In this document: positions 10,690 through 22,841 of the stretch, piece by piece
How the letters are laid out: every line of letters begins with the position of its first letter
Position numbering within the stretch: the first letter of the stretch is position 1
Origin: Myxococcales bacterium
GTDB taxonomy: Bacteria > Myxococcota > Polyangia > Polyangiales > Polyangiaceae
Assembly (NCBI GenBank): GCA_003151595.1
Contig: PLXW01000017.1
Span: 89,288 to 126,843 of the forward strand
Length of the DNA: 37,556 bases
Direction of reading: 5' to 3'
Translations under genes and position numbers: made by a program
The notes under the pieces: model-generated
Told to the model about the DNA's origin: nothing
Databases searched by the model: none
Seen by the model: only the letters and a program-made list of their open reading frames with translations

Positions 10690-11500
10690 GCAGGAGCGCG
10701 TCGATCCCCTTCGACAGCTCGCCCATCGCCGCTTTCACCGGCGCGCTCAGGTTCGCGGGAAGCGTCGGCGTGCGATTCACGTCGAGGAGCACCGGCGTCC
10801 CTTCGTGCAAGACGAAGTCGAACTTCCCGTAGTCGAACCCCAGCCGCGCTCGCGCGGCGCGCATCTCGTCTGGGATCGGCACCGGCTCCCGCTGGATCAT
10901 GTCTCCCCCTTTCACGACGGGGTGCGGACCGAGCAACCGATGGCATCGGTCGCGATCGCCGAGGAAGAGCCAGTGGCGCGAGTGGTATCCCCCATCGCCG
11001 CGCTCGGGGAGGAACTTCTCGATCACGAGATCGGGATCGAGGCGTAGCGCGGCGGGGACGGCGGCGATGGACGCGAAGACCGGATAGCGCTCGGTCATGT
11101 AGCGAACGGGCGGTCCCAGGGGCTCGCCTTTGCGTCGCGCGATCTCTTCGTGAAGGCGCTCGGGGATGCCGCCGGCGTTGGCGTTCGTCTTCACGATGAC
11201 CGGGCCGCGGTAGTCGTCGTACGGGCCGACGAGGTTCGCGCTGATGGCGCGCTTGCCGATGTCGCGCGTCGCGCCGTTGATGGCCACGCGGTAGCCACGG
11301 AGTGCGTCGATGTAGTCGTCGGCGACGAGCGTGCGGTCGACGTGAAGGAGCACGGCGTCGGCGCCGGGGAGGTTAGTGGTCCCTTCGTGCACGACGACGC
11401 GGTGTCCCATGTCGGTCCAGTGCGGGAAGAGCGCGTGCACCAGGAAGGGGCGCGATCGAAAGAGATCGTGCGGGTGGGTGAGCACCAGGATCGTCGCCAT
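10670..11500 (-). CDS. ATP-grasp-like protein
   Basis: A 276-residue protein that looks like a short ATP-grasp ligase. The order is PVIVKTNANAGGIPE (lysine and glycine loop of the ATP site), DLVIEKFLPERGDGGYHSRH, and DYGKFDFVLHEGTPVLLDVN with Asp/Asn metal-ligand positions, then RTPTLP. The N-terminal part (ILVLTHPHDLFRSRPFLVHA) suggests a Rossmann-like pre-ATP domain. The family makes carboxylate-amine or carboxylate-thiol bonds; the substrate is not evident. ATG 11500 gives a compact protein; the frame is open to 11737 but that extension enters the next gene's upstream region. It is divergent from the lipoprotein at 11550, 49 bp away. Confidence 0.7.
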   Translation of the reverse strand: MATILVLTHPHDLFRSRPFLVHALFPHWTDMGHRVVVHEGTTNLPGADAVLLHVDRTLVADDYIDALRGYRVAINGATRDIGKRAISANLVGPYDDYRGPVIVKTNANAGGIPERLHEEIARRKGEPLGPPVRYMTERYPVFASIAAVPAALRLDPDLVIEKFLPERGDGGYHSRHWLFLGDRDRCHRLLGPHPVVKGGDMIQREPVPIPDEMRAARARLGFDYGKFDFVLHEGTPVLLDVNRTPTLPANLSAPVKAAMGELSKGIDALLLSASAR

Positions 11501-11549
11501 CGGCGTTGCGACGATATACGCTCTCGAGCTCAGGGGGAGGAGTCGACTC

Positions 11550-12404
11550 ATGCGCCTGCGCGATGGAGTGACGTGCGCGACCATGACCTGCGTCGGAGCC
11601 GCGCTGGCGATAGGCGGTCTCGCGAGCTGCGTCGGCGACGACAACGCTGCGCCGGCGGTCGACGCGTCGATCAACGACGCCACCCAGCCCGACTCGAACG
11701 TTCCGCAGAGCGAGGACGCGGGGACCGATACCGGCACCGACGCAACCGACGCCGCGCCGCAAGTCGATGCGAACCCCGGCGTCGATGCAGCCGATGCGAA
11801 TCCGGGGTGCGTGCCGACGGGGCTCGCCTTCGCGCCGAAGGCGTATGTTCCCGCGCACGCGCAGACGTTCGACTGCTCGAACGACAGTCAGGATCTCGCG
11901 CTGGCGCAAGCCTGCATCGGCGACGCTTCGACGCTCGATGCGTGCGTGAACTTCGCCGCGCAGAACGCCGCGGAAGACGGCGGCGTCCCGGCCACGTGCA
12001 GCGCGTGCCTCCTGACGCCCGAGGGGAACGACGCCGGCACGTACGGTCCCGCGATCGTCGGATCGATCACCGTCCCGAACCTCGCCGGTTGCATCGAGCT
12101 GGCCGACCCCACGGACGCGGGCGTCGGCTGCGCGATGGCGATCCAGAGGGCGTGGGAATGCGCCGAGGTTCAGTGCAATCCGAACTGCGCGGTCACCGAC
12201 GAGCCGTCGCACGCGGCGTTCGTCGCGTGTACGGCGACGGCCGCCACGAACAGCGTATGCAATTCATACACGGTCGCCGCGAATGCTTGCTTGGCGACGG
12301 AGGCGGTAGACGGGGGCCCCTTCGCGGTCACCGCGTTCTGCGTCGGCGCGGGCGATCCGGTCACGCAGTTCGAAGACATCGCGCGCTTCTTCTGCACCAG
12401 CTGA
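11550..12404 (+). CDS. Putative Cys-rich lipoprotein with Asp/Ala-rich linker
   Basis: A 284-residue exported protein of unknown function. The signal peptide ends in a lipobox-like LASC with Cys27. A low-complexity Asp/Ala/Thr/Pro linker follows (about residues 29-85) with a short duplication (VDANPG then ADANPG), then a Cys-rich globular part (CSACLLTPEG, CAEVQCNPNC, CNSYTVAANAC). Such linkers after the lipid anchor are common in Polyangia surface proteins. ATG 11550 is supported by a GGAGGAG-type ribosome site about eight bases upstream. It converges on the sigma factor with one base between the stops. Confidence 0.8.
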   Translation: MRLRDGVTCATMTCVGAALAIGGLASCVGDDNAAPAVDASINDATQPDSNVPQSEDAGTDTGTDATDAAPQVDANPGVDAADANPGCVPTGLAFAPKAYVPAHAQTFDCSNDSQDLALAQACIGDASTLDACVNFAAQNAAEDGGVPATCSACLLTPEGNDAGTYGPAIVGSITVPNLAGCIELADPTDAGVGCAMAIQRAWECAEVQCNPNCAVTDEPSHAAFVACTATAATNSVCNSYTVAANACLATEAVDGGPFAVTAFCVGAGDPVTQFEDIARFFCTS

Positions 12405-12405
12405 T

Positions 12406-12966
12406 TCAGTCGTGCGCGCATCTGTGACTCGCATCGCACGTGCAGTCGAGGCACGGGCGTAGCGACGTCACACCGCAGTGACCGCGTACGCGCTCTTGCA
12501 ACGCGCGACGCGCGCGATGAAGTCGGACGTGGAGGTTGCTCGTCGAGATGCCCAGCGCGGCGGCGACGGCGTTCGGTTCTTCGCCGAGGACGTCGATGCG
12601 CCGGAGAGCTTCGGCGTACGCGGGGCGAAGCTCTTCGAGGAGATGCGTCGCGCAGGCGCACGGCGTCGGCGCCGTGCCTTCGGTTCGTTCGTCGGCGAGA
12701 TCGGCCGGGTCCGCGGTCGAGGGCGATCGCATCGGATCGCCAGCGCGTGAGCGATGATGGTCGGCGATCGCGTTGCGGAGGATGCGATGGAACCACGCGC
12801 GCGCGCGGGCCGGGTCATCGAGCGAAGACGCGCGATCGCTCGCGCGCAGCATCGCGCGTTGCACGATGTCTTCCGCGTCGGCCGCGGTCGCGACGCGGCT
12901 TCGGGCGAGGCTGACGAAGCGCGCGCGCTCAGGCGTGAGCACGTCGAGGAGCGCGCGCGCGTCCAT
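12406..12966 (-). CDS. ECF sigma factor with Cys-rich C-terminus (CorE/ECF44-like)
   Basis: A 186-residue extracytoplasmic-function sigma factor. Sigma-2 is about residues 10-75 (TAADAEDIVQRAMLRASDRA, ARAWFHRILRNAIADHHRS). Sigma-4 is about 108-160 (AYAEALRRIDVLGEE, ALGISTSNLHVRLHRARRAL). The linker holds CAC (Cys103, Cys105). The tail holds five cysteines (164, 172, 175, 177, 183) in HCGVTSLRPCLDCTC. CorE-type ECF factors of myxobacteria sense copper or cadmium through such a tail and have no anti-sigma partner; none is seen here. ATG 12966 is used because it follows the upstream metallothionein-like stop by five bases. The metal-sensor role is inferred from the tail and the neighbour. Confidence 0.88.
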   Translation of the reverse strand: MDARALLDVLTPERARFVSLARSRVATAADAEDIVQRAMLRASDRASSLDDPARARAWFHRILRNAIADHHRSRAGDPMRSPSTADPADLADERTEGTAPTPCACATHLLEELRPAYAEALRRIDVLGEEPNAVAAALGISTSNLHVRLHRARRALQERVRGHCGVTSLRPCLDCTCDASHRCAHD

Positions 12967-12971
12967 CGGGG

Positions 12972-13106
12972 CTACTTCGTCCGACCGCGCGCCTTGGTGC
13001 ACCCGCAGGAAGGACCGCACGTGCACGGCGAGCACAGGCACCCGGGGCCGCACGGGCACGACTGGGGGGGCTTCGGCGCAGTCTGGTTCGTCTTCGATTT
13101 CGTCAT
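12972..13106 (-). CDS. Metallothionein-like mini-protein with four CXC motifs
   Basis: A 44-residue protein. The first 16 residues (MTKSKTNQTAPKPPQS) are Lys/Pro-rich. The core has eight cysteines at 17, 19, 23, 25, 28, 30, 34 and 36, forming CPC, CLC, CTC and CGC in the symmetric spacing 3-2-3 between motifs, and the tail is basic (KARGRTK). There are no aromatic residues. This composition is that of metallothioneins, which bind Cu, Zn or Cd in the cytoplasm, though I recognise no known family. The gene is real by context: AGGAG lies at 13114-13118, seven bases before ATG; an ECF-type promoter is upstream; and the stop is five bases before the sigma factor start. Metal binding is inference. 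Confidence 0.8.
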   Translation of the reverse strand: MTKSKTNQTAPKPPQSCPCGPGCLCSPCTCGPSCGCTKARGRTK

Positions 13107-13151: not shown

Positions 13152-13180
13152 TAGACGGGCTCCCGGCGCGATTCCTTACA
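13152..13180 (-). promoter_or_regulatory. Predicted ECF sigma promoter of the metallothionein/sigma operon
   Basis: On the minus strand TGTAAGG (13180-13174) is followed after exactly 16 bases by CGTCTA (13157-13152). That is the usual ECF spacing, and both elements resemble known ECF -35 and -10 boxes. Transcription would start near 13145, giving a leader of about 40 bases to the ATG at 13106. Autoregulation by the downstream sigma factor is the likely reading. Confidence 0.6.
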
Positions 13181-13251: not shown

Positions 13252-13635
13252 ATGCGCTCGGCCCTCCGCGTCCTCGCCTCGCTCAACGCGCTGTTCCAGG
13301 TCGCGGTCGGGCTCCTGTGCATCTTCACCCCCATTGCGGCGGCGAAGGTGTTCCAGCTCGGTCAGATCGGCCCCTCGGTCTACGCGCTCACGCGGATGTT
13401 CGGCGGGCTGATCTTCGGCAGCGGGCTCCTCTCGGCGCTCGTCGCGCGGGATCCCGATCGCAACCCCGACCTGCCGCTCTTGCTCGTCATCTCCTGCGTC
13501 GCGAACGTCGGCGCCGACGCGATGGTCGTGGCCAACGGCGAGATGCTCTTCGGTCAGGTCGCCGTCGGCGTCTTTCTTCAGGTCGTCGTGGTGGGCGTCG
13601 CCGTCGCGTATCTAGCCGCGCGCAAGAAGGCGTAG
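13252..13635 (+). CDS. Small four-helix membrane protein (DUF4345-like)
   Basis: A 127-residue, strongly hydrophobic protein with four predicted membrane segments: about residues 5-27 (VLASLNALFQVAVGLLCIFT), 45-65 (ALTRMFGGLIFGSGLLSALV), 74-92 (LPLLLVISCVANVGADAMVV) and 98-122 (FGQVAVGVFLQVVVVGVAVA). It ends AARKKA. Arg48 with the following Gly-rich helix, and ARDPDR in the loop, recall small DUF4345-type inner-membrane proteins. The function is unknown. It is divergent from the metallothionein/sigma operon; the 145-bp gap could hold promoters for both. It converges on the carbonic anhydrase gene. Confidence 0.8.
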   Translation: MRSALRVLASLNALFQVAVGLLCIFTPIAAAKVFQLGQIGPSVYALTRMFGGLIFGSGLLSALVARDPDRNPDLPLLLVISCVANVGADAMVVANGEMLFGQVAVGVFLQVVVVGVAVAYLAARKKA

Positions 13636-14380: not shown

Positions 14381-15949
14381 TTACCCTTCGAAAAGCGAGA
14401 GCTGGCGGCGCTTCGCGTCGGCTCTCGTGCCGTGGTCGCCCGGCCCGAGCGCGATGAGCGCGTCGATCGTCTCCGCCTCCGCTGCGCGCTTGTCTTCGCG
14501 GTACCGAACGACGCGCGCGAATCGGAGGGCGACGCCGCCGGGATAGCGCGGGCTCCGCTGGACGTCGTTGAATCGAATCTCCACCACGAGCTCGGGGCGC
14601 ACGCGGACGACGTGTCCTTCGTGCGTCGTCGCGAGCTCGAGGAGGCGTTCTGTCTGCCACTTCAGCATCACGTCGGTGAGACCCTTGAACGTCTTGCCCA
14701 CCATGCAGAACGTTCCGTCGGCGCGGCGCGCTCCAAGATGCAAGTTCGACAGCAGTCCCTTGCGTCGTCCGCTCCCCCACTCGGCCGCGAGCACGACGAG
14801 ATCGACGGTGACGAACGGCTTCACCTTGCGCCACGCGCCGCCGCGCGCGCCGAAGCGGTACGGCGAGGCGAGGTCCTTCACCATGACCCCTTCGTGGCCC
14901 GTCGCGCGCGCCTCGTCGTAGAAGAGCGCGGCCTCCGCAGGCGCCACGTGTTGAAGGCACGGCACGCGGAGATCGTCGGCCGCGATGGCGTCGAGCGCCG
15001 CGCGCCTCGTCGCCAGCGGCTCGTCGAGAAGATCGTTCCCGTCGCGATGCAGGCAGTCGAAGAGAAACGCGCGCAGTCGATCGCCTCTCGGCGTCTCCCC
15101 TTTCGAGGCCACGGCCGAGAAGGAGTCCTGGAACGCGCGCGGCTTTCCGTCGGGCCCGACGAGCACCACTTCGCCGTCGAGGACGGCGCTCTCGGCGTCG
15201 AGCGCCCGCAACGCAGCAAGTAGCGGCGCGCAGCCGTCGGTGATGTCGTTCCCCTGGCGAGAGAAGATCGCGACGCGCGCGCCCAGCTTGTGGACCTGCG
15301 CGCGAACGCCGTCGACCTTCCACTCCACCTGCGCGTCGGCGATCCCGAGGAGCGCGTCCTGGATCGAGTCGGCGTGGAGCGCGAGCATCGGCGTGACGGG
15401 GTGAAACAGCTCGAGCGACGACGGGGGCGACGGATCGCGCGCATCGCCGAGCAGCGCATCGGCTGCCCGCGCGATCGATCCCTTCACCATCACGGCCCGA
15501 CGCACGACCGCATCGGTCTGGTTGGCGAGCGCCGCGAGCGCTGGGATCATCACGCCGCCGAGGCTCCCCTGCCGAAGCGAGCCGGTGAGCGCGCCGAACA
15601 GGAGGGAGCGCTCGCCGTCGGTGAGCTGCGCGAACAGTGACGCGACGCGCGCGAGCCTCTCGTCCCTTTCGCCGGTAGCCGCAGGATCCAGCGCGTCCTC
15701 CACGGCCCCCAGCGTCACCGACGCGCTCTTCGCGGCCGGCGTCTCCGACAGCGTGGAGAGCTGTGATGGCCCGATCCCGAGCGGCCCGCACAGCGGCTCG
15801 GCGACGAGCCAGCCTACCGCCGCGGCGATCTCGCTCGCCGGCGTGCGACCGAGGAGCTCCACCAGGATGGCCTTCTTCTCGAGCCGCGATCGCGTTCGCG
15901 CGAGGCGATCCGAGGCGCGCGCGAGATCCGCGAAGAGGAGCCCGTTCAC
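14381..15949 (-). CDS. ATP-dependent DNA ligase
   Basis: A 522-residue ATP-dependent DNA ligase that seals nicks through an enzyme-AMP intermediate. The N-terminal DNA-binding domain is about residues 1-180. The catalytic lysine is Lys211 in VEWKVDGVRAQVHK (KxDG motif I). Motif III lies around LDGEVVLVGPDG and FLFDCLH, motif IV is EGVMVKDLASPYRF, and motif V is WRKVKPFVTVDLV. The OB domain follows. It ends RRQLSLFEG. Bacteria seal replication nicks with LigA (NAD-dependent), so this enzyme probably serves repair. ATG 15949 overlaps the TGA of the Mur ligase-like gene by four bases (ATGA), tying it to the cyanophycin genes. Confidence 0.93.
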   Translation of the reverse strand: MNGLLFADLARASDRLARTRSRLEKKAILVELLGRTPASEIAAAVGWLVAEPLCGPLGIGPSQLSTLSETPAAKSASVTLGAVEDALDPAATGERDERLARVASLFAQLTDGERSLLFGALTGSLRQGSLGGVMIPALAALANQTDAVVRRAVMVKGSIARAADALLGDARDPSPPSSLELFHPVTPMLALHADSIQDALLGIADAQVEWKVDGVRAQVHKLGARVAIFSRQGNDITDGCAPLLAALRALDAESAVLDGEVVLVGPDGKPRAFQDSFSAVASKGETPRGDRLRAFLFDCLHRDGNDLLDEPLATRRAALDAIAADDLRVPCLQHVAPAEAALFYDEARATGHEGVMVKDLASPYRFGARGGAWRKVKPFVTVDLVVLAAEWGSGRRKGLLSNLHLGARRADGTFCMVGKTFKGLTDVMLKWQTERLLELATTHEGHVVRVRPELVVEIRFNDVQRSPRYPGGVALRFARVVRYREDKRAAEAETIDALIALGPGDHGTRADAKRRQLSLFEG

Positions 15950-17634
15950 GAGGCCGGCACCCCCAGGAGCGCGCGCACTCCGGCGGACTCGAGGTGGGCG
16001 AGGATCACGATCATGTCGCCCGGTTTACTCCACCCGAGCGCGCGACGGAGAGAGGCGACTTCGCTCGCCGCATCTTCGATGTCGGCGTCACGGAGGCCGC
16101 TTGCGACGAGCTCGGCGCGGAAGAGCGCGCGCATCTCCCCTTCCTTCCGGCCGCGCTGATACCCCGCAAGATCGCGGAGAACGACGAGCGCCGGCTGCTG
16201 CTCGCGGATCAGGCGCGCCGACGCGCGCACGCTGTCGTCGCTTCGATCGCCGCCGTAGCCGCAGAGGATCGCCAGCCGCCCGGCGGGCACGCGGAGCTTC
16301 GCCACGAGCGCGAAGACGTTCGTGAGCCCGTCGGGGTTGTGCGCGAAGTCGATGAGTATCTGAACGCCGCCGAGCTCGACGAGGTTCGACCGCCCCGGGT
16401 TGTCGTCGAACGACGGCTGGAACGAACGAAGCCCGTCGACGATCGCGTCCTCCGCGAAGCCCATGGTCGAGGCCAGCGCCGACGCTCCGAGCGCGTTGGC
16501 GAGGTTGAAGCGCGCCGCGCCGCCGTACGCGATCGGCACTTCGTCGACCTTCGCCAGGACGCGCTCCCCGTCGCGCGTCGATCGCACGAGCGCATCGTCG
16601 CGAAGGAACCAGGCGTCACCGCCGCGCGCCATGTGCGCCACGAGCGCAGGGGCGCGCGGGTCGAGCGAGAAGAACGCGACGGGCGCGCGGTACGACTTCG
16701 CAAGCGCGACGAGCTCGGGATCCTCCGCGTTCAAGACGACGCGCCCGTCAGGGACCACGACGTCGCCGACTACTCCTTTCACGCGCGCCATCGTCGGCAC
16801 ATCCATCACGCCGTAGTGCCCGAGGTGATCCGCCGTGACGTTCGTCACCAGCGCGCCGCACGCTTCCTCCACGGCGAGACCGCGCCGCAAGATCCCGCCG
16901 CGCGCCGTCTCGAGCACCGCGACCTCGGTCTCGCGATCGCGCAGCACCAGCCGGGCGCCCGCGGGCCCCGTGCAGTCGCCGCGATCGACCGCGCGATCGC
17001 CCACCTGCGCAATGTCGGTGGTCGTGCATCCCACGACGAGCCCCGCAAGGCGCGCCATCTTCGCCACGAGGCGCGACGTCGTCGTCTTTCCGTTCGTGCC
17101 GGTCACGAGCACGACCGGGATCGCGCCCAGCTCCGTCCACGGCACGTCGGCGCCGCGCGGGAGCGCATCGATCGCGAACGTTCGCGATCGTTTCCCCATC
17201 CCCAGGGTCACCGCCTCGTCGTCCCACAGAAACGGCACGCCGCGCCGTCGCGCTTCGTCTTCGAGCGCGATCAACGGCGCGTCGCCTCGTGGAACGAACG
17301 CGAGCTCGGAGCGCACTTCGCTCCATGTGCGCGGCGCGTTCCCGGTGAGCACGGCGTTCGCCGCCTCCACCGCCTTGTCCGTCACGTGCGTCGCCAGGAG
17401 AAGCGCGTCGATCCGCGCCGCGAACGTGAAGGTCGCGCCGCCTCGAAAGAAGCGAGCGGCAGGCGCGTCGTACGCCAGCCCCGCCGCCGTCGCGATCCGC
17501 GCGAGCTCTTGCTTCCACGCCCCGAACGCCGCCTCCGGATCATCGCCCGCGTCGAACGCGACCTCGGCGAGCGCCACGGGGACGCGCGCGTAGAGGCTCG
17601 GTCCCATCAGCCGCCACGAATCGACGAGGTGCAT
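15946..17634 (-). CDS. CphA-like Mur ligase lacking the ATP-grasp domain
   Basis: A 562-residue relative of cyanophycin synthetase. The N-terminal GPSLYARVPV (11-20) matches GPSVYAHFPV of the adjacent CphA, so the CphA N-domain is present. The Mur ligase P-loop GTNGKT is at 179-184 here but near 500-505 in CphA, so about 320 residues covering the ATP-grasp module are missing. The rest of the Mur ligase is intact: LETARGGILRRGLAV, VTNVTADHLGHYG, VLIDFAHNPDGL-like LIDFAHNPDG, and CGYGGDRSD. It could add Arg (the Mur ligase role in CphA) to an acceptor made elsewhere, or be accessory. It starts seven bases after the cphA stop and overlaps the DNA ligase start. Confidence 0.88.
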   Translation of the reverse strand: MHLVDSWRLMGPSLYARVPVALAEVAFDAGDDPEAAFGAWKQELARIATAAGLAYDAPAARFFRGGATFTFAARIDALLLATHVTDKAVEAANAVLTGNAPRTWSEVRSELAFVPRGDAPLIALEDEARRRGVPFLWDDEAVTLGMGKRSRTFAIDALPRGADVPWTELGAIPVVLVTGTNGKTTTSRLVAKMARLAGLVVGCTTTDIAQVGDRAVDRGDCTGPAGARLVLRDRETEVAVLETARGGILRRGLAVEEACGALVTNVTADHLGHYGVMDVPTMARVKGVVGDVVVPDGRVVLNAEDPELVALAKSYRAPVAFFSLDPRAPALVAHMARGGDAWFLRDDALVRSTRDGERVLAKVDEVPIAYGGAARFNLANALGASALASTMGFAEDAIVDGLRSFQPSFDDNPGRSNLVELGGVQILIDFAHNPDGLTNVFALVAKLRVPAGRLAILCGYGGDRSDDSVRASARLIREQQPALVVLRDLAGYQRGRKEGEMRALFRAELVASGLRDADIEDAASEVASLRRALGWSKPGDMIVILAHLESAGVRALLGVPAS

Positions 17635-17641
17635 CGCGCGG

Positions 17642-20449
17642 TCAGTCGTCCGTCTCGCGCGCGAGCCGCACGCCGCGTTCGTCTTGAATCAGCGTCTCGC
17701 CCGAGAACGCCTCCTGTGCGCGCAGCCGGCTCACGCTCGGCGACGACGGCTCCTTCGGCGGCGGCGTCGACGCCGGTCGACGCGAGCGCGCCTCGTCCCC
17801 TTCCGACTTGTAATAGATGATCTGCTTCCAGCTTCTCGAGATCATGTCTCCGAACACGAGCAGCAGATCCCCGCGACGCGCCATGCTCAAGGCGGCGCCG
17901 ATGGCCTCTTGCTCGTCGGGGATCACCTGCATGTGCTCCTTCGGATAGCCCTCTTCGAGCAGCGTCTTCTCCAGCATGCGCGGCACTTCGTCGGGCTGTC
18001 TTCCGCGGAGGTCGTCGTCGCGCCGCAAGATCAACCGGTCGAACGCCTTGCCGCCGATGCGCGCGATGTCGCGGATGTCTTCGTCGCGTCTGTCGCCCGG
18101 CGCGGCGAGCACGCAGATGCGGCGCCCGGTGCATTCGAGCTTCGTGATGAGATCGGCCATGGCCTGCACGGCGGCGGCGTTGTGGCCGTAATCGAGGATC
18201 ACCTTGAACGGGTGACCGTCGAAGACGTTCATGCGCCCCGGCGCCTGGAAGTACGTGGCGTCGAACGTGCGGAGCCCCTGGCGAATGTTCTCGGGCTTCA
18301 CGCCGAGCGCGTACGCCATCACGGCGGCGAACATGGCGTTCTGCACGTTGTGGAGCGCCTTGCCTTCGAGCGTCGCCGGGATCAGGTGCGTCCACAGGAG
18401 CGGCTGGTGCGCGCCGCGATCGTAGAGCGTGATCATCTGCCCGTTGATCCCCTCCTCGAGGACGACGGCCAGCCCTCCGGCGCGAATGTGCTCGCGAACG
18501 AGCTCGTGGCGCGGGTTCGTCGTGACGTACGCGATGCGCGTGGCCTTCGTGTGGTCGGCCATCTTGAGGCAGTGGAGATCGTCGGCGTTCAGGACGACGC
18601 AGTCGCGCGCCACCTCGACCACGATCCGCTTCACCTCCGCCAGCCGCTCGAGCGTCTCCACGCCGGCGAGCCCGAGGTGATCGGCCGTCACGTTGAGCAC
18701 GGCGCCGACGTTGCAGCTGCGATACCCCATGCCCGCGCGTAGAAGCCCGCCGCGCGCCGTCTCGAGCACGGCGGTGTCGACCACCGGATCGCGCAAGACC
18801 ATCCGCGCCGACTGCGGTCCGGTCATGTCGCCGGAGACGGTGCGCACGCCGTCGATGTAGATGCCGTCGGTGGTCGCGAGCCCCACGGTCTGCCCGGCCA
18901 TCTTCTGGATGTGCGCGAGCATGCGGCACGTGGTCGTCTTGCCGTTCGTTCCGGTGATCGCGCAGATCGGGATCTGACTCGGCGTCCCCTTCGGAAAGAG
19001 CATGTCGATGACCGGGCCGGCGACGTCGCGCGGTTTCCCTTCGGTCGGCGCGACGTGCATGCGAAAGCCCGGCGCCGCGTTCACCTCGCAGATGCCGCCG
19101 CCGACTTCGCGGTAGCTCTGCGTGATGTCGGGAGTGATGAAGTCGACGCCGATGACGTCGAGGCCGATGGCCTTCGACGCGCGCACGGCCATGTCGAGGT
19201 TGTCGGGGTGCACTTGATCGGTGAGATCGATCGCGGTGCCGCCCGTCGAGAGGTTGCCGGTCGAGCGCAGATAGAAGATCTCGCCCTTCGGAAGCACCGT
19301 GTCGCGCGTCGCGCTCTTCAGCGACATCAAGCGCTCGGCTTGATCGTCGAGCTCGATGCGCGTGAGCACCTTCTCGTGACCGATGCCGCGGCGCGGGTCG
19401 GAGTTCACCACGTCGACCAGCTGCGCGATCGTCCGCTCCCCATCGCCCACGACGTGGCCCGGGACGCGCTTGGCGACCGCCACGAGCTCGCCGTTCACCA
19501 CGAGCATCCGGTGGTCGAACCCCTTCAAGTAGTTTTCGACGATGACCGTGCGCGCATGCTCGCGCGCCTTCTCGAACGCGACCTTCACCTGCTCGGCGTT
19601 CACGATGTCGAGCGTCACGCCGCGCCCGTGGTTCGCGTCGAGCGGCTTCACCACCACCGGATACCCGAGGCGCTCGGCCGCGCGCACGGCTTGCTCCACG
19701 CTCTTGACGGTTCGCTGCCTGGGCACCGGTAGCCCGAGATCGCCGAGGATGCGGTTCGTCTCCTCTTTGTCCGACGCGATCTCGACGGCGATGTGGCGCG
19801 TCTCGGACGTGACCGTCGCCTGGATGCGCTTCTGGTACCGCCCGTGCCCGAACTGCACGAGGCTGTAGTCGTTCAAGCGGAGCCACGGGATGTCGCGCTC
19901 CTCGGCAGCACGCACGAGCGAACCGGTCGACGGCCCGAGCTGGCGGCGCTGCGCGAAGTCGATGAGGTCGCGAAGCTCGGCTTTGAAGTCGAACTTCGGA
20001 TCGGTGACCCCTTCGGGGCGCAGCTCGATCGGGAGCAAGTGATGGAGCAGCTTCAGCCCCAGGTCTCCCGCCGCTTCACCGACGCGCTCTTCTTCGTACT
20101 CGTAGACGACGTTGTAGTGCCCGTCCTGCGCGTCGTCCGCGCTCCGCGTTCGCCCGAACGAGACGTTCGCGCCCGTGAGCTGCTGAAGCTCGATCGATAC
20201 GTGCTCGAGCACGTGACCGAGCCACGTCCCTTCGTCCTCCTTCAGCCGCCGCACGAACCCGCCCGCTTCGCCGTACGAGCACGTGTGCTGCTGGAGCGAC
20301 GGAATCGCCGCGAGCAAGCCGTCGTTGAACCCGTCGATCTTCGCGCTGGGCCACGCCTCGAGCTTCCCGAGATCGACCACGAGGCGCATGACGGGGAAAT
20401 GCGCATAGACGCTGGGCCCGCGAAAAATGCGCTGCTCGAGGATCTTCAT
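17642..20449 (-). CDS. cphA: Cyanophycin synthetase
   Basis: CphA makes cyanophycin, a poly-Asp backbone with Arg side chains, from Asp, Arg and ATP. The 935-residue protein has the N-domain (1-165, FRGPSVYAHFPVMRLVV), then the ATP-grasp domain (about 210-470) with GHGRYQKRIQA and Lys268 in VVVKPLDANHGRGV, which adds Asp. The Mur ligase domain follows (about 485-870) with P-loop GTNGKTTT at 500 onward and TADHLG, which adds Arg. A tail of about 60 residues after YYKSEGDEARSRR is Pro/Ser-rich and charged, longer than usual for the family. ATG 20449 has GAGG very close (spacing about two bases). A hairpin precedes it, and a tandem repeat array fills the gap to cphB. Confidence 0.96.
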   Translation of the reverse strand: MKILEQRIFRGPSVYAHFPVMRLVVDLGKLEAWPSAKIDGFNDGLLAAIPSLQQHTCSYGEAGGFVRRLKEDEGTWLGHVLEHVSIELQQLTGANVSFGRTRSADDAQDGHYNVVYEYEEERVGEAAGDLGLKLLHHLLPIELRPEGVTDPKFDFKAELRDLIDFAQRRQLGPSTGSLVRAAEERDIPWLRLNDYSLVQFGHGRYQKRIQATVTSETRHIAVEIASDKEETNRILGDLGLPVPRQRTVKSVEQAVRAAERLGYPVVVKPLDANHGRGVTLDIVNAEQVKVAFEKAREHARTVIVENYLKGFDHRMLVVNGELVAVAKRVPGHVVGDGERTIAQLVDVVNSDPRRGIGHEKVLTRIELDDQAERLMSLKSATRDTVLPKGEIFYLRSTGNLSTGGTAIDLTDQVHPDNLDMAVRASKAIGLDVIGVDFITPDITQSYREVGGGICEVNAAPGFRMHVAPTEGKPRDVAGPVIDMLFPKGTPSQIPICAITGTNGKTTTCRMLAHIQKMAGQTVGLATTDGIYIDGVRTVSGDMTGPQSARMVLRDPVVDTAVLETARGGLLRAGMGYRSCNVGAVLNVTADHLGLAGVETLERLAEVKRIVVEVARDCVVLNADDLHCLKMADHTKATRIAYVTTNPRHELVREHIRAGGLAVVLEEGINGQMITLYDRGAHQPLLWTHLIPATLEGKALHNVQNAMFAAVMAYALGVKPENIRQGLRTFDATYFQAPGRMNVFDGHPFKVILDYGHNAAAVQAMADLITKLECTGRRICVLAAPGDRRDEDIRDIARIGGKAFDRLILRRDDDLRGRQPDEVPRMLEKTLLEEGYPKEHMQVIPDEQEAIGAALSMARRGDLLLVFGDMISRSWKQIIYYKSEGDEARSRRPASTPPPKEPSSPSVSRLRAQEAFSGETLIQDERGVRLARETDD

Positions 20450-20455
20450 TCCTCA

Positions 20456-20475
20456 CAGCGTCAGCCGTCACGCTG
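20456..20475 (-). other. Small hairpin in the cphA leader
   Basis: CAGCGT (20456-20461) pairs with ACGCTG (20470-20475) around an eight-base loop. It ends seven bases before the cphA ATG, so on the transcript it lies next to the initiation site and could affect translation. No terminator-like T-run follows. Confidence 0.35.
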
Positions 20476-20503
20476 GAGCTTGTCCAGAGGCAAGCGACCC
20501 GGC

Positions 20504-20839
20504 GATACGAGGTGTGGAGCCGGCCTTGCGCGCTACCGGCGCCCATTGTCGGCGTGTGAAGAGGGAGTGTCGGCGTACCACGACGAAGATCCGCTCGAAC
20601 GACACGCCGGTACGGGGTGTGAAGGCGATCTGTCGCGCAATCAACGCCTTCGCACGGCGTGTGAAGACGGTCGATCGCGCCCCCGGCGCCTCGGTACGGC
20701 GGATGAACGCCGTGACACGCGCAGATCACGTCCCGGTACGACGAGCGAAGGTCGTCAAACGCGCAACTGCCGTCCTGACACGTCGAGTCCTGGTCGTGAC
20801 ACGCGCGACCGACGGTTCGGTACGACGTACCGACGCCCT
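20504..20839. repeat. Degenerate 21/42-bp tandem repeat array between cphB and cphA
   Basis: The 388-bp gap 20450-20837 has no credible gene but is mostly tandem repeat. Units of 42 bp start at 20504, 20609, 20651, 20693, 20735 and 20777; a 63-bp unit starts at 20546; a partial unit at 20819 reaches the cphB stop. Each 42-bp unit is two 21-bp halves: half A resembles GGTACGGCGTGTGAAG, and half B contains a core like ACGCGCAA and ends near CGCCT. The 63-bp unit is A-A-B, so the base period is 21 bp (two helical turns). Unit 20693 has ACGGCG/CGCCGT arms in half A and unit 20735 has ACGAC/GTCGT at the same place, hinting at hairpins with a compensatory change. The role is unknown. Confidence 0.8.
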
Positions 20840-21674
20840 AGGTCGCCGGCGGAGGCTTCGCTTCGCGCGTCTCGAGGTCGAATGTCCCCCCTTCGGTGAG
20901 GACATGAAGGCGGATGTTCGTCATGCACAGCGGGCGGCCGTCGTCGGTCGTCGCGATCGACGAGTGACCCATGGCGCTGGCATCGACCAACGTGACGGCA
21001 CCCGAGCCGATGACCTCGATCTTCCGCGTCGGATCGATGAAGGCGGCCGTGTCTTCGTCGAGACCGATGCCGATGGCGAACGGGTTGTACGCCAGCGCCG
21101 TGAGGAGGCGGCCGATGCGATCGCGCTGCGTGAAGTGCTGGTCGATGATGACCCGGTTCGTGAGACCGAAGCCGGGCGCGAGCGTGGCCTTGCCGACGGA
21201 GGGCGTGGGGCCTTCGGCGCCGCTGGCGATCATGTGCTCGGAAAGGATCGCGGCGCCGGCCGACGTTCCGCCCACGGCGACGCCTCGCGCGTTCGCCCGC
21301 CGGATCGCTTTGGCGACGGGCGTGCCGCCGAGGATGCTCGAGATGCGGAGCTGGTTGCCGCCGGTGAGGAAGATGCCCGTCGCGCGATCGAGCTCGGCGA
21401 GCCAGTCTTCGCGTGACGTGTCGCTCCGCTCGGCGAAGGCGATGGCGCCTGCCGACTTCACGCCGAGCCCGCGGAACAGCTTCTCGTAGCGCTCGCCCGT
21501 GTCGGGGAGGACCGACGCCGTGGGGAGGATGGCGATGATCGCCTGCTCGCCCCCGGACACTTCGACGAAGCGGCGAAGGATCTCGGCGGGGCCGACTTTG
21601 TCCTCCGCGCCGCCGACGGCGACGATGAATCCGCGTTTCTTTTCCTGCTCTACTTTCGCGGGGCTCAAGCTCAC
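20838..21674 (-). CDS. cphB: Cyanophycinase
   Basis: CphB is a serine-type exopeptidase that releases beta-Asp-Arg dipeptides from cyanophycin. The 278-residue product shows the peptidase S51 signature: the nucleophile Ser138 in GGTSAGAAILSEHMI, His180 in VIIDQHFTQRDR, and FLTGGNQLRI. These align, with an offset of six, to the Ser132 and His174 recalled for the Synechocystis enzyme. IGIGLDEDTAAFI is also typical. No signal peptide is visible, so it acts on intracellular granules. The start is GTG 21674 with TAGGAG just upstream, formed partly by the iadA stop (TAG, 21681-21683), so the pair is translationally coupled. Downstream lies the repeat array, then cphA. Confidence 0.96.
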   Translation of the reverse strand: MSLSPAKVEQEKKRGFIVAVGGAEDKVGPAEILRRFVEVSGGEQAIIAILPTASVLPDTGERYEKLFRGLGVKSAGAIAFAERSDTSREDWLAELDRATGIFLTGGNQLRISSILGGTPVAKAIRRANARGVAVGGTSAGAAILSEHMIASGAEGPTPSVGKATLAPGFGLTNRVIIDQHFTQRDRIGRLLTALAYNPFAIGIGLDEDTAAFIDPTRKIEVIGSGAVTLVDASAMGHSSIATTDDGRPLCMTNIRLHVLTEGGTFDLETREAKPPPAT

Positions 21675-21680
21675 TGACTC

Positions 21681-22841
21681 CTACTCGAAGCGCCCCGGCC
21701 GCACCACTTTCCCCGCACGAACCATCCACGCGCCGCGCGCCATCACCTCCGCGAGGTGCGCCTCGCCGTCGAGCACCACCAGGTCCGCGTCGGCGCCGGC
21801 CGCGATGCGCCCCTTGGCGTGGAAGCGAAAGAGCGTGGCCACGTTCGAGGTGAAGACGGGGAGCACGTCGGCGAGCGCGTGGCCGCGGGCGAGGAGCGCG
21901 CGAAGCGTCTCGAGGAGCGCTGTCGATTGGCCGATGCCCATGGCGACGATGCGACCGTCGGCGTCGAACGTCGGGAGGCAGCCGCCGCCGTCGCTGCTGC
22001 ACGTGAGGCGCGAGCGATCGAGACCGGCAGAGAAGTAGCGCGCGATCGCGTCGGGGGCCGAGAGGCCGGGGTCGTCCGGCTCGACGGGGAAAGCGGTGAC
22101 GTCGATGTGAACGCCGCGGGCCGTGATCGCCAGCGCCTCGTCGAACAGCGCGCGCTGGCGGTTCACGTGCGTCGGATGAAACACGCGCGCGGGGATCTCG
22201 GTCGTATCGAGCGCGCGACGGACGAGATCGAGCCCGCGCGGACCGTCGCCCAGGTGGAGATGAACGAGCCCCGCCTTGCCGCTCATCATGCCGGCGACGT
22301 GCGCATCGGACGCGACGCGCGCCAGCTCGTCGAGCGTCGGCTGCGACGAGCGGTGACAGCTGAGCGCGAGCTCGCCGACGCCGACGATCGGATCGACGAA
22401 CAGGATGTCGCTCCGCACCGAGCCGGTGAGCGTCTGCAGCGGAAGCTCGTAGCTCCCCGTGTAGCAATACGCGCTGATCCCTTCTTCGCGCAGCCCGAGC
22501 GTCCGCGCGACGAGCGACGCGATCGTGCGGGTCGTGCCGTCCGTTCCGAGCAGCCCTATGCACGTCGTGACGCCGGCGAGCGTGAGCGACGAGAGCGCCA
22601 GCGGGGGAACGCGCGACGCCGGCCCCGATTCGCCGCCACCGCCCGTCACGTGAACGTGCGCGTCGATGAGCCCGGGAACGAGCCGGCGCCCGCCGAGATC
22701 CACTTCGACGACACCGAGCGCCGGCGGAAGCGCGGGAAGGCTCGGCCCGACGGCGAGGATCCGTTCACCCGCGATCAACACATCGACGCGACCCAGCGGC
22801 GCCGGCGCGTAGACCTCGGCGCCGCGAAGGAGCGTGAGCAC
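21681..22841 (-). CDS. iadA: Beta-aspartyl (isoaspartyl) dipeptidase, IadA type
   Basis: This amidohydrolase would split the beta-Asp-Arg made by cyanophycinase into Asp and Arg. The 386-residue product carries His62 and His64 in DAHVHVTGGGGE, His196 in LVHLHLGDG, His225 in FHPTHVNRQ, and Asp284 in TCSSDGGG, which match the metal ligands known from E. coli IadA. At the position of the carbamylated lysine (Lys162 in E. coli, 39 residues before the third His) this protein has Glu157 (VGVGELALSCHRSS). The start is GTG 22841. A 7-bp stem hairpin lies just upstream. It directly precedes cphB. The substrate is inferred from the locus. Confidence 0.92.
   Translation of the reverse strand: MLTLLRGAEVYAPAPLGRVDVLIAGERILAVGPSLPALPPALGVVEVDLGGRRLVPGLIDAHVHVTGGGGESGPASRVPPLALSSLTLAGVTTCIGLLGTDGTTRTIASLVARTLGLREEGISAYCYTGSYELPLQTLTGSVRSDILFVDPIVGVGELALSCHRSSQPTLDELARVASDAHVAGMMSGKAGLVHLHLGDGPRGLDLVRRALDTTEIPARVFHPTHVNRQRALFDEALAITARGVHIDVTAFPVEPDDPGLSAPDAIARYFSAGLDRSRLTCSSDGGGCLPTFDADGRIVAMGIGQSTALLETLRALLARGHALADVLPVFTSNVATLFRFHAKGRIAAGADADLVVLDGEAHLAEVMARGAWMVRAGKVVRPGRFE

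Follow-up and report, generated by a model that had tools for sequence, protein, structure and literature searches.

A putative metal-responsive operon pairing a metallothionein-like CXC gene with a CorE-like ECF sigma factor gene

Does a 44-residue frame rich in cysteine, lying immediately upstream of an ECF sigma factor gene, encode a metal buffer that shares both transcript and control with the sigma factor? The question arises on the minus strand of a 37,556-nt stretch of DNA (the window), where a sequence-only reading had proposed a self-contained metal response of two genes. The features examined here suggest that the two genes probably form a metal-responsive operon, in which a metallothionein-like CXC protein and a CorE-like ECF sigma factor are translationally coupled, and the pair is likely to be a small self-regulating metal-response unit of a kind that annotation tends to miss. 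The features are as follows.

13153..13180, minus: promoter-like dyad TGTAAGG-N17-GTCT, 46 nt ahead of the small-gene ATG, the sole match in the window
13118-13114, minus: Shine-Dalgarno AGGAG of the small gene, 7 nt ahead of its ATG, read directly
13106-12972, minus: metallothionein-like 44-aa gene, ATG at 13106 and TAG at 12972; MTKSKTNQTAPKPPQSCPCGPGCLCSPCTCGPSCGCTKARGRTK
12999..13058, minus: CXC core of the small gene, units CPCGPGCLCSP and CTCGPSCGCTK, the single pattern match in the window
12967..12971, minus: 5-nt junction CCCCG between the small-gene TAG and the sigma ATG (12966), read directly
12966-12406, minus: CorE-like ECF sigma factor gene, 186 aa, with a Pfam match to both sigma domains
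12652..12660, minus: linker CXC (C103, C105), Cys in 120/120 listed homologues
12418..12477, minus: Cys-rich tail C164-x7-C172-x2-C175-x-C177-x5-C183, kept in homologues

The small gene and the adjoining sigma factor gene

The small gene, its strong AGGAG site and its stop five bases before the sigma gene are all found as the sequence-only reading had described them, and no strong ribosome site for the sigma gene itself is seen at the junction. The eight cysteines (residues 17, 19, 23, 25, 28, 30, 34 and 36) make up the claimed four CXC motifs, in the layout C-x-C-x3-C-x-C-x2-C-x-C-x3-C-x-C, or two 11-residue units; the spacing, which had been called even, is nearly but not exactly so. The 60-nt CXC pattern, with two mismatches allowed, has a single match in the window and none in 100 dinucleotide shuffles, and GC3 is 0.89 in the small ORF and 0.80 in the sigma gene. 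Metallothioneins are generically small, Cys-rich proteins with CXC motifs and few aromatic residues, a description that fits the small protein (44 aa, eight Cys, four CXC, no aromatic residues), which also contains no His.

The small protein had been said to belong to no recognized family, and indeed no Pfam or NCBIfam family matches it up to E 10, the Pfam profile Metallothio_Pro (PF02069) included. A protein search with the 44-mer returned no significant sequence homologue and no candidate having three 5-residue words in common with it, and plasmid tblastn using the same query returned nothing. An alignment with five hypothetical cores, inferred from the frame-shifted shadows described below, found a single protein, P0121 (E 9.4), which is not significant; its CXC repeats start with the spacing of the small ORF, and it was kept as an illustration and as one alignment row. 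Two PDB cyclotide matches (E 2.6 and 8.1) were dismissed. The CXC pattern matched at least 120 stretches of viral contigs, where the core is interrupted by a stop in 149 of 275 pattern reads and, by eye, most of the short open reads are poly-Cys repeats. As a separate observation, an AT-rich stretch of a 158-kb viral contig (L168) holds a short, metallothionein-like CXC-repeat frame, MRNRQNCNCENCKCQKACNCMKCNCSKSCDCACCDC.

Since the flanking plus-strand ORFs lie tail to tail (ending at 12404) and divergently (starting at 13252), the pair looks like a two-gene unit. The former (11376-12404) is a Cys-containing, lipoprotein-like ORF without a family above cut-off that ends 1 nt from the sigma stop, and the latter (13252-13635) has a small product that matches DUF4345 weakly (below cut-off at E 0.001). 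Elsewhere in the window, on the minus strand, Pfam matches outline an apparent cyanophycin cluster (15949-22841), with a cyanophycin synthetase (17645-20449), its Mur-ligase-like partner (15949-17634), a peptidase S51 as in cyanophycinase (20841-21674) and an amidohydrolase (21684-22841).

The sigma factor matches Sigma70_r2 (3.5e-12) and Sigma70_r4_2 (1.3e-7), and neither of the two genes flanking it matches an anti-sigma family in Pfam. The five tail cysteines reported by the sequence-only reading are C164, C172, C175, C177 and C183; the linker CXC had gone unmentioned. At E<=1e-5 the sigma factor has 170 homologues, the best at 82% identity, and one of those listed is named Polyangiales. 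Counted over the 120 homologues listed of these 170, C164, C172, C175 and C177 are Cys in all, as are the linker cysteines, and C183 in 117. More distant relatives were returned from genome contigs (54, the best at 43%) and, with the sigma alignment as query, from viral contigs (five ECFs). An AlphaFold model has a mean pLDDT of 81.8, with both domains confident; no metal site is visible in it, because most of the linker and tail is modelled without confidence.

By spacing, C164, C172, C175 and C177 of the window sigma correspond to C181, C189, C192 and C194 of CorE. Four CorE tail cysteines (181, 184, 192 and 194) are called absolutely conserved in PMC3107203; the window sigma has equivalents of 181, 192 and 194, together with 189, and lacks 184. 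The C184 position (by spacing C173 in CorE2, with the motif taken from PMC9023288) is Cys in 2 of the 120 listed homologues, P0057 and P0120, whereas 117 of the 120 carry a Cys absent from CorE, six residues past the CxC. Because one tested definition fails at C184, the window sigma is assigned to a distinct CorE-like subgroup and not to CorE itself: the earlier claim of CorE-type sensing holds for the presence of a linker CXC and tail cysteines, but not for this position. A tree groups the 18 CorE-type rows in a single clade (100/99), but long branches make its placement with respect to the query family unsafe.

Traces of the pair in relatives

In many of the predicted sigma homologues the N-terminus runs on too far, in the sigma frame, into the region upstream of the gene. 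The sigma start could be placed by rule in 107 of the 120 listed homologues, 39 of which carry an extension of over 12 residues; the 13 unplaced homologues fall outside the analysis, P0077, P0082, P0098 and P0119 among them being extended by eye. In these extensions, a V, L or M followed by a codon beginning with C or T permits a TGC or TGT one frame over, and the pattern that results from this frame-shifted reading is the Cys spacing of the window small ORF. Under a strict test of at least five contiguous template positions, this shadow of the small gene is present in 21 of the 39 extended homologues, with all eight positions in 10, as against 0 of 3195 windows of sigma body and a mean of 0.005 (maximum 1) in shuffled extensions. 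Of the 18 extensions that fail the test, 14 have runs that look partial or shifted by eye and four (P0053, P0076, P0086 and P0101) have none. Furthermore, the six longest full-shadow extensions allow an ATG that precedes the first Cys by 16-23 codons (16 in the window) and a stop exactly nine codons past the last (nine in the window), with no forced stop in between. Judged on this evidence, which consists of amino acids with inferred codons and covers those homologues that have an extension, the small gene is conserved among the sigma homologues, and at least 21 of the 120 listed appear to carry a false N-terminus formed by the small gene in the wrong frame, a correction to their annotation. 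Conservation of the small frame had been proposed as a check by the sequence-only reading, and the 21 shadows, the freedom from forced stops in the six longest and the DNA arrangement at locus L229, described below, speak in its favor.

The same extensions could be taken at face value, the upstream stretch being the true N-terminus of a longer sigma factor with no small gene at all. Extension of 39 of the 107 placeable homologues (of 120 listed) and a GTG at 13059 from which the window sigma frame can start would agree with this, but residues of the extensions alternate among V, L and M just where TGC or TGT is possible in the other frame, the small ORF has an AGGAG and an ATG of its own, and in L229 the small-ORF stop overlaps the sigma GTG. 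A longer sigma factor is hence extremely improbable, and a separate small gene is the reading retained here.

Loci with DNA context were sought in 195 genomes of one phylum, taken to be Myxococcota from CorE gene context, GC and LeuB identity, among others; LeuB identity to these genomes reaches 65%, and CorE genes adjoin multicopper-oxidase-like frames in two loci (L057 and L062). At E<=1e-25, CorE-like sigmas 33-44% identical to the query were found in 77 of the 195 genomes, and a profile of the sigma family found none at E<=1e-48. Thirty-five CorE-like loci were read, 15 returned by the sigma search and 20 picked by hand, and their tails are of CorE type in 28, of CorE2 type in five and of the window's type in two, L229 and L230. 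In L229, a 14-Cys metallothionein-like ORF (MSEPTTCQCQRCEATCGCQGVAPSTSGCCCGPKCTCGPSCACPPTCRCPKK, 824-979) lies upstream of the sigma gene with the window-type tail, and its stop overlaps the sigma GTG (976). L230 has the window-type tail and the dyad described below, but no small CXC gene. In L235, a small ORF (MKTETCSCNPCHADVCKCSSRADAKPAANNGCCCGDACGCGEACDCPTSCGCN, 621-782) lies upstream of a CorE-type sigma that retains C184 and whose ATG, at 990 by the analyst's choice of start, follows the separate small gene by 207 nt. A small CXC ORF is absent, by filters and reading, from the other 33 of the 35 loci, and an ORF with three or more CXC is absent from all 18 CorE-type loci drawn from other sources (L001-L003, L055-L064 and L190-L194). 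The pairing of the small gene with a CorE-like sigma is not general: the conserved pairing with ECF44-like sigma genes that had been proposed as a check is seen in the shadows, L229 and L235, but not in those 33 loci. A strict rule whereby the small gene replaces C184 is opposed by L230 and L235.

When a profile was built from the small proteins of the window, L229 and L235 together with P0121, it gave three matches in the 195 genomes: L229 and L235, both part of the profile, and one outside it in genome G204 (E 7.5e-4). The latter gene (locus L247), a single case found without regard to sigma genes, encodes 54 aa with a signal-peptide-like start and ends 3 nt ahead of the ATG of a sigma gene whose product has a Sigma70_r2 match (6e-13), no region 4 family and no Cys tail; this stretch (L247:1480-2205, locus GC 0.42) may join an exported chelator to another sigma group. 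The five small proteins that were compared have Cys contents of 18-27%. In the phylum of G005 the profile matched 0 of 376, and its 2 matches among 367 in the phylum of G002 did not prove, on reading, to be small CXC-repeat genes. The 44-mer alone gave weak matches in 9 of the 195 genomes, of which only L201 passed a three-CXC filter and turned out to be a 117-aa frame without a CXC repeat, and PF02069 gave 5 weak matches in the 195, none above cut-off.

A promoter-like dyad upstream of the operon

The dyad at 13153..13180 occurs in 0 of 100 shuffles of the window, and within the window no copy faces the divergent gene at 13252-13635 (plus strand). In the form TGTAAGG-N16/17-GTCT it is common to the regions upstream of the window operon, the L229 operon and the L230 sigma gene, and in 2000 triple shuffles of the 130-nt pieces a shared 7+4 dyad never arose, while a shared 7-mer alone arose in 116. 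The dyad was spotted by eye in these three loci and later relaxed to fit L235. The relaxed form, [TC]GTAA[GT]G, lies within 450 nt upstream in the window, L229, L230 and L235 and in none of the 50 other CorE-like rows (54 rows in all, in which L060 and L224, and L062 and L244, are identical places); the simple value for 4/4 against 0/50, 3e-6, is optimistic for a motif picked out by eye and subsequently relaxed. Loosening the pattern further adds upstream matches in L223 and L241. Among the 251 loci scanned, the exact dyad also turns up in L003, L074 and L228 at places that do not precede a sigma start, and the relaxed dyad has 12 matches in 450,304 strand-bases of these loci, upstream sites included. 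In L230, a second, divergent copy (797-832) lies 7 nt ahead of the ATG of a membrane-protein gene, whose product resembles isoprenylcysteine methyltransferases and which is a candidate second target of the sigma factor. The claim that the small gene and the sigma gene share a transcript gains support from the single upstream dyad and from the 5-nt or overlapping junctions.

Coupled small ORFs are known to attenuate expression in response to cysteine from mycobacterial work, and the small ORF might likewise be a leader peptide, devoid of function as a protein, whose Cys codons sense cysteine supply and control translation of the sigma gene. Its richness in Cys, its strong ribosome site and its 5-nt or overlapping junction with the sigma gene would all suit such a role. 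The hallmark of Cys-codon leader peptides, however, is a run of Cys codons near the stop, and the window ORF has no adjacent Cys codons and places its last Cys nine codons before the stop; its CXC units are identically spaced in the 10 full shadows and in the window and are not clustered at the stop. Furthermore, in L235 one dyad copy precedes the small gene and another the sigma gene, which stand 207 nt apart as separate genes. A leader peptide is therefore decidedly unlikely, and a metallothionein-like product remains the preferred reading.

Proposed mechanism and comparison with known systems

According to PMC3107203, CorE requires its tail, in which C189 is the main activating and C184 the main inactivating cysteine, the C184A change leading to constitutive expression without copper. 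Both the linker CXC and the Cys-rich tail are essential in CorE and CorE2, and CorE2 responds to Cd and Zn (PMC8999054). By analogy, a thiophilic metal (Cu, Cd or Zn) would bind the linker CXC and tail cysteines of the window sigma and render it active, and the active sigma would bring RNA polymerase to the TGTAA[GT]G-N16/17-GTCT dyad and switch on its own operon. The small CXC protein, made in step through coupled translation (the 5-nt gap here, the overlap in L229), would then chelate the metal, buffer the cell and turn the sigma off. The tail, which has the activating Cys of CorE but neither C184 nor the CorE2 pair, does not point to any one of these metals. The chelator may supply the off-switch, since the subgroup lacks the C184 that CorE needs for inactivation. 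What can be read in the sequence is two frames, conserved cysteines, a dyad common to several upstream regions and, in relatives, traces of the pair; the metal, its activation of the sigma factor and the feedback are what we infer.

The small protein could instead act as a metallochaperone that loads, and thereby activates, the sigma factor. Its tight pairing with a sigma whose presumed ligands are Cys would fit, but the Cys content of the five small proteins resembles that of storage proteins; the sequence does not decide the matter, and we hold a chaperone to be unlikely. It could also be a soluble anti-sigma factor released by metal, in keeping with the usual position of such genes next to ECF genes. 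The zinc-binding anti-sigma (ZAS) motif is, however, H-x3-C-x2-C, which a protein without His cannot contain, and the small gene precedes the sigma gene. No linked anti-sigma genes were found for CorE-like sigmas in PMC3107203, and an anti-sigma role is very improbable. The reading of the small protein as a buffer that shuts the sigma off allows, quite tentatively and with the balance of probability against it, for a recurrent module of chelator plus sigma, built more than once (L229, L235 and L247), in which the CXC protein would be a dedicated off-switch replacing C184. Its forms would be an overlapping gene with a same-tail sigma (L229), a separate gene under the same dyad with a C184-type sigma (L235) and an exported-looking chelator with a tail-less sigma (L247).

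Among the titles and abstract starts listed from the open PMC subset, none describes the pairing of a metallothionein gene with a gene for an ECF sigma, and the word "metallothionein" is absent from PMC3107203 and PMC8999054. Bacterial metallothioneins with described regulators are, in the sources consulted, under SmtB (PMC7387436) or RicR (PMC10141476). If true, control of a metallothionein by a metal-sensing sigma factor encoded in the same operon would be a new logic, and the coupling of a chelator to a sigma that lacks the inactivating Cys would make the off-switching of such sigmas directly testable.

Among the closest known systems are CorE (MXAN_3426) and CorE2 of Myxococcus xanthus, formerly of group ECF44 and now ECF238, which have in common with the window sigma the sigma2 and sigma4 domains, the linker CXC, the Cys-rich C-terminal tail and the absence of an anti-sigma alongside. 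The window sigma differs from CorE in being directly preceded by a metallothionein-like gene, and its dyad carries GTAA[GT]G where an AAC-bearing -35 is given for CorE. With the SmtA/BmtA-type bacterial metallothioneins (PF02069) the small protein shares its size, Cys-richness and CXC motifs, but it lacks both a family match and His; and whereas smtA is under the repressor SmtB (PMC7387436), the small gene would be sigma-controlled. MymT of Mycobacterium tuberculosis, compared by its description in PMC10141476, is likewise a metallothionein under a metal-responsive regulator, yet that regulator, RicR, is a CsoR homologue and not a sigma factor encoded in the operon. Like the window sigma, OrbS of Burkholderia cenocepacia is an ECF sigma that carries a Cys-based metal sensor at its own C-terminus, but it is inhibited by Fe(II) and its Cys spacing is different (PMC9023288). 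Set against these systems, the pair is best read as a putative autoregulated metallothionein-sigma operon, a variant of the CorE scheme in which the tail is without the Cys that CorE needs for inactivation.
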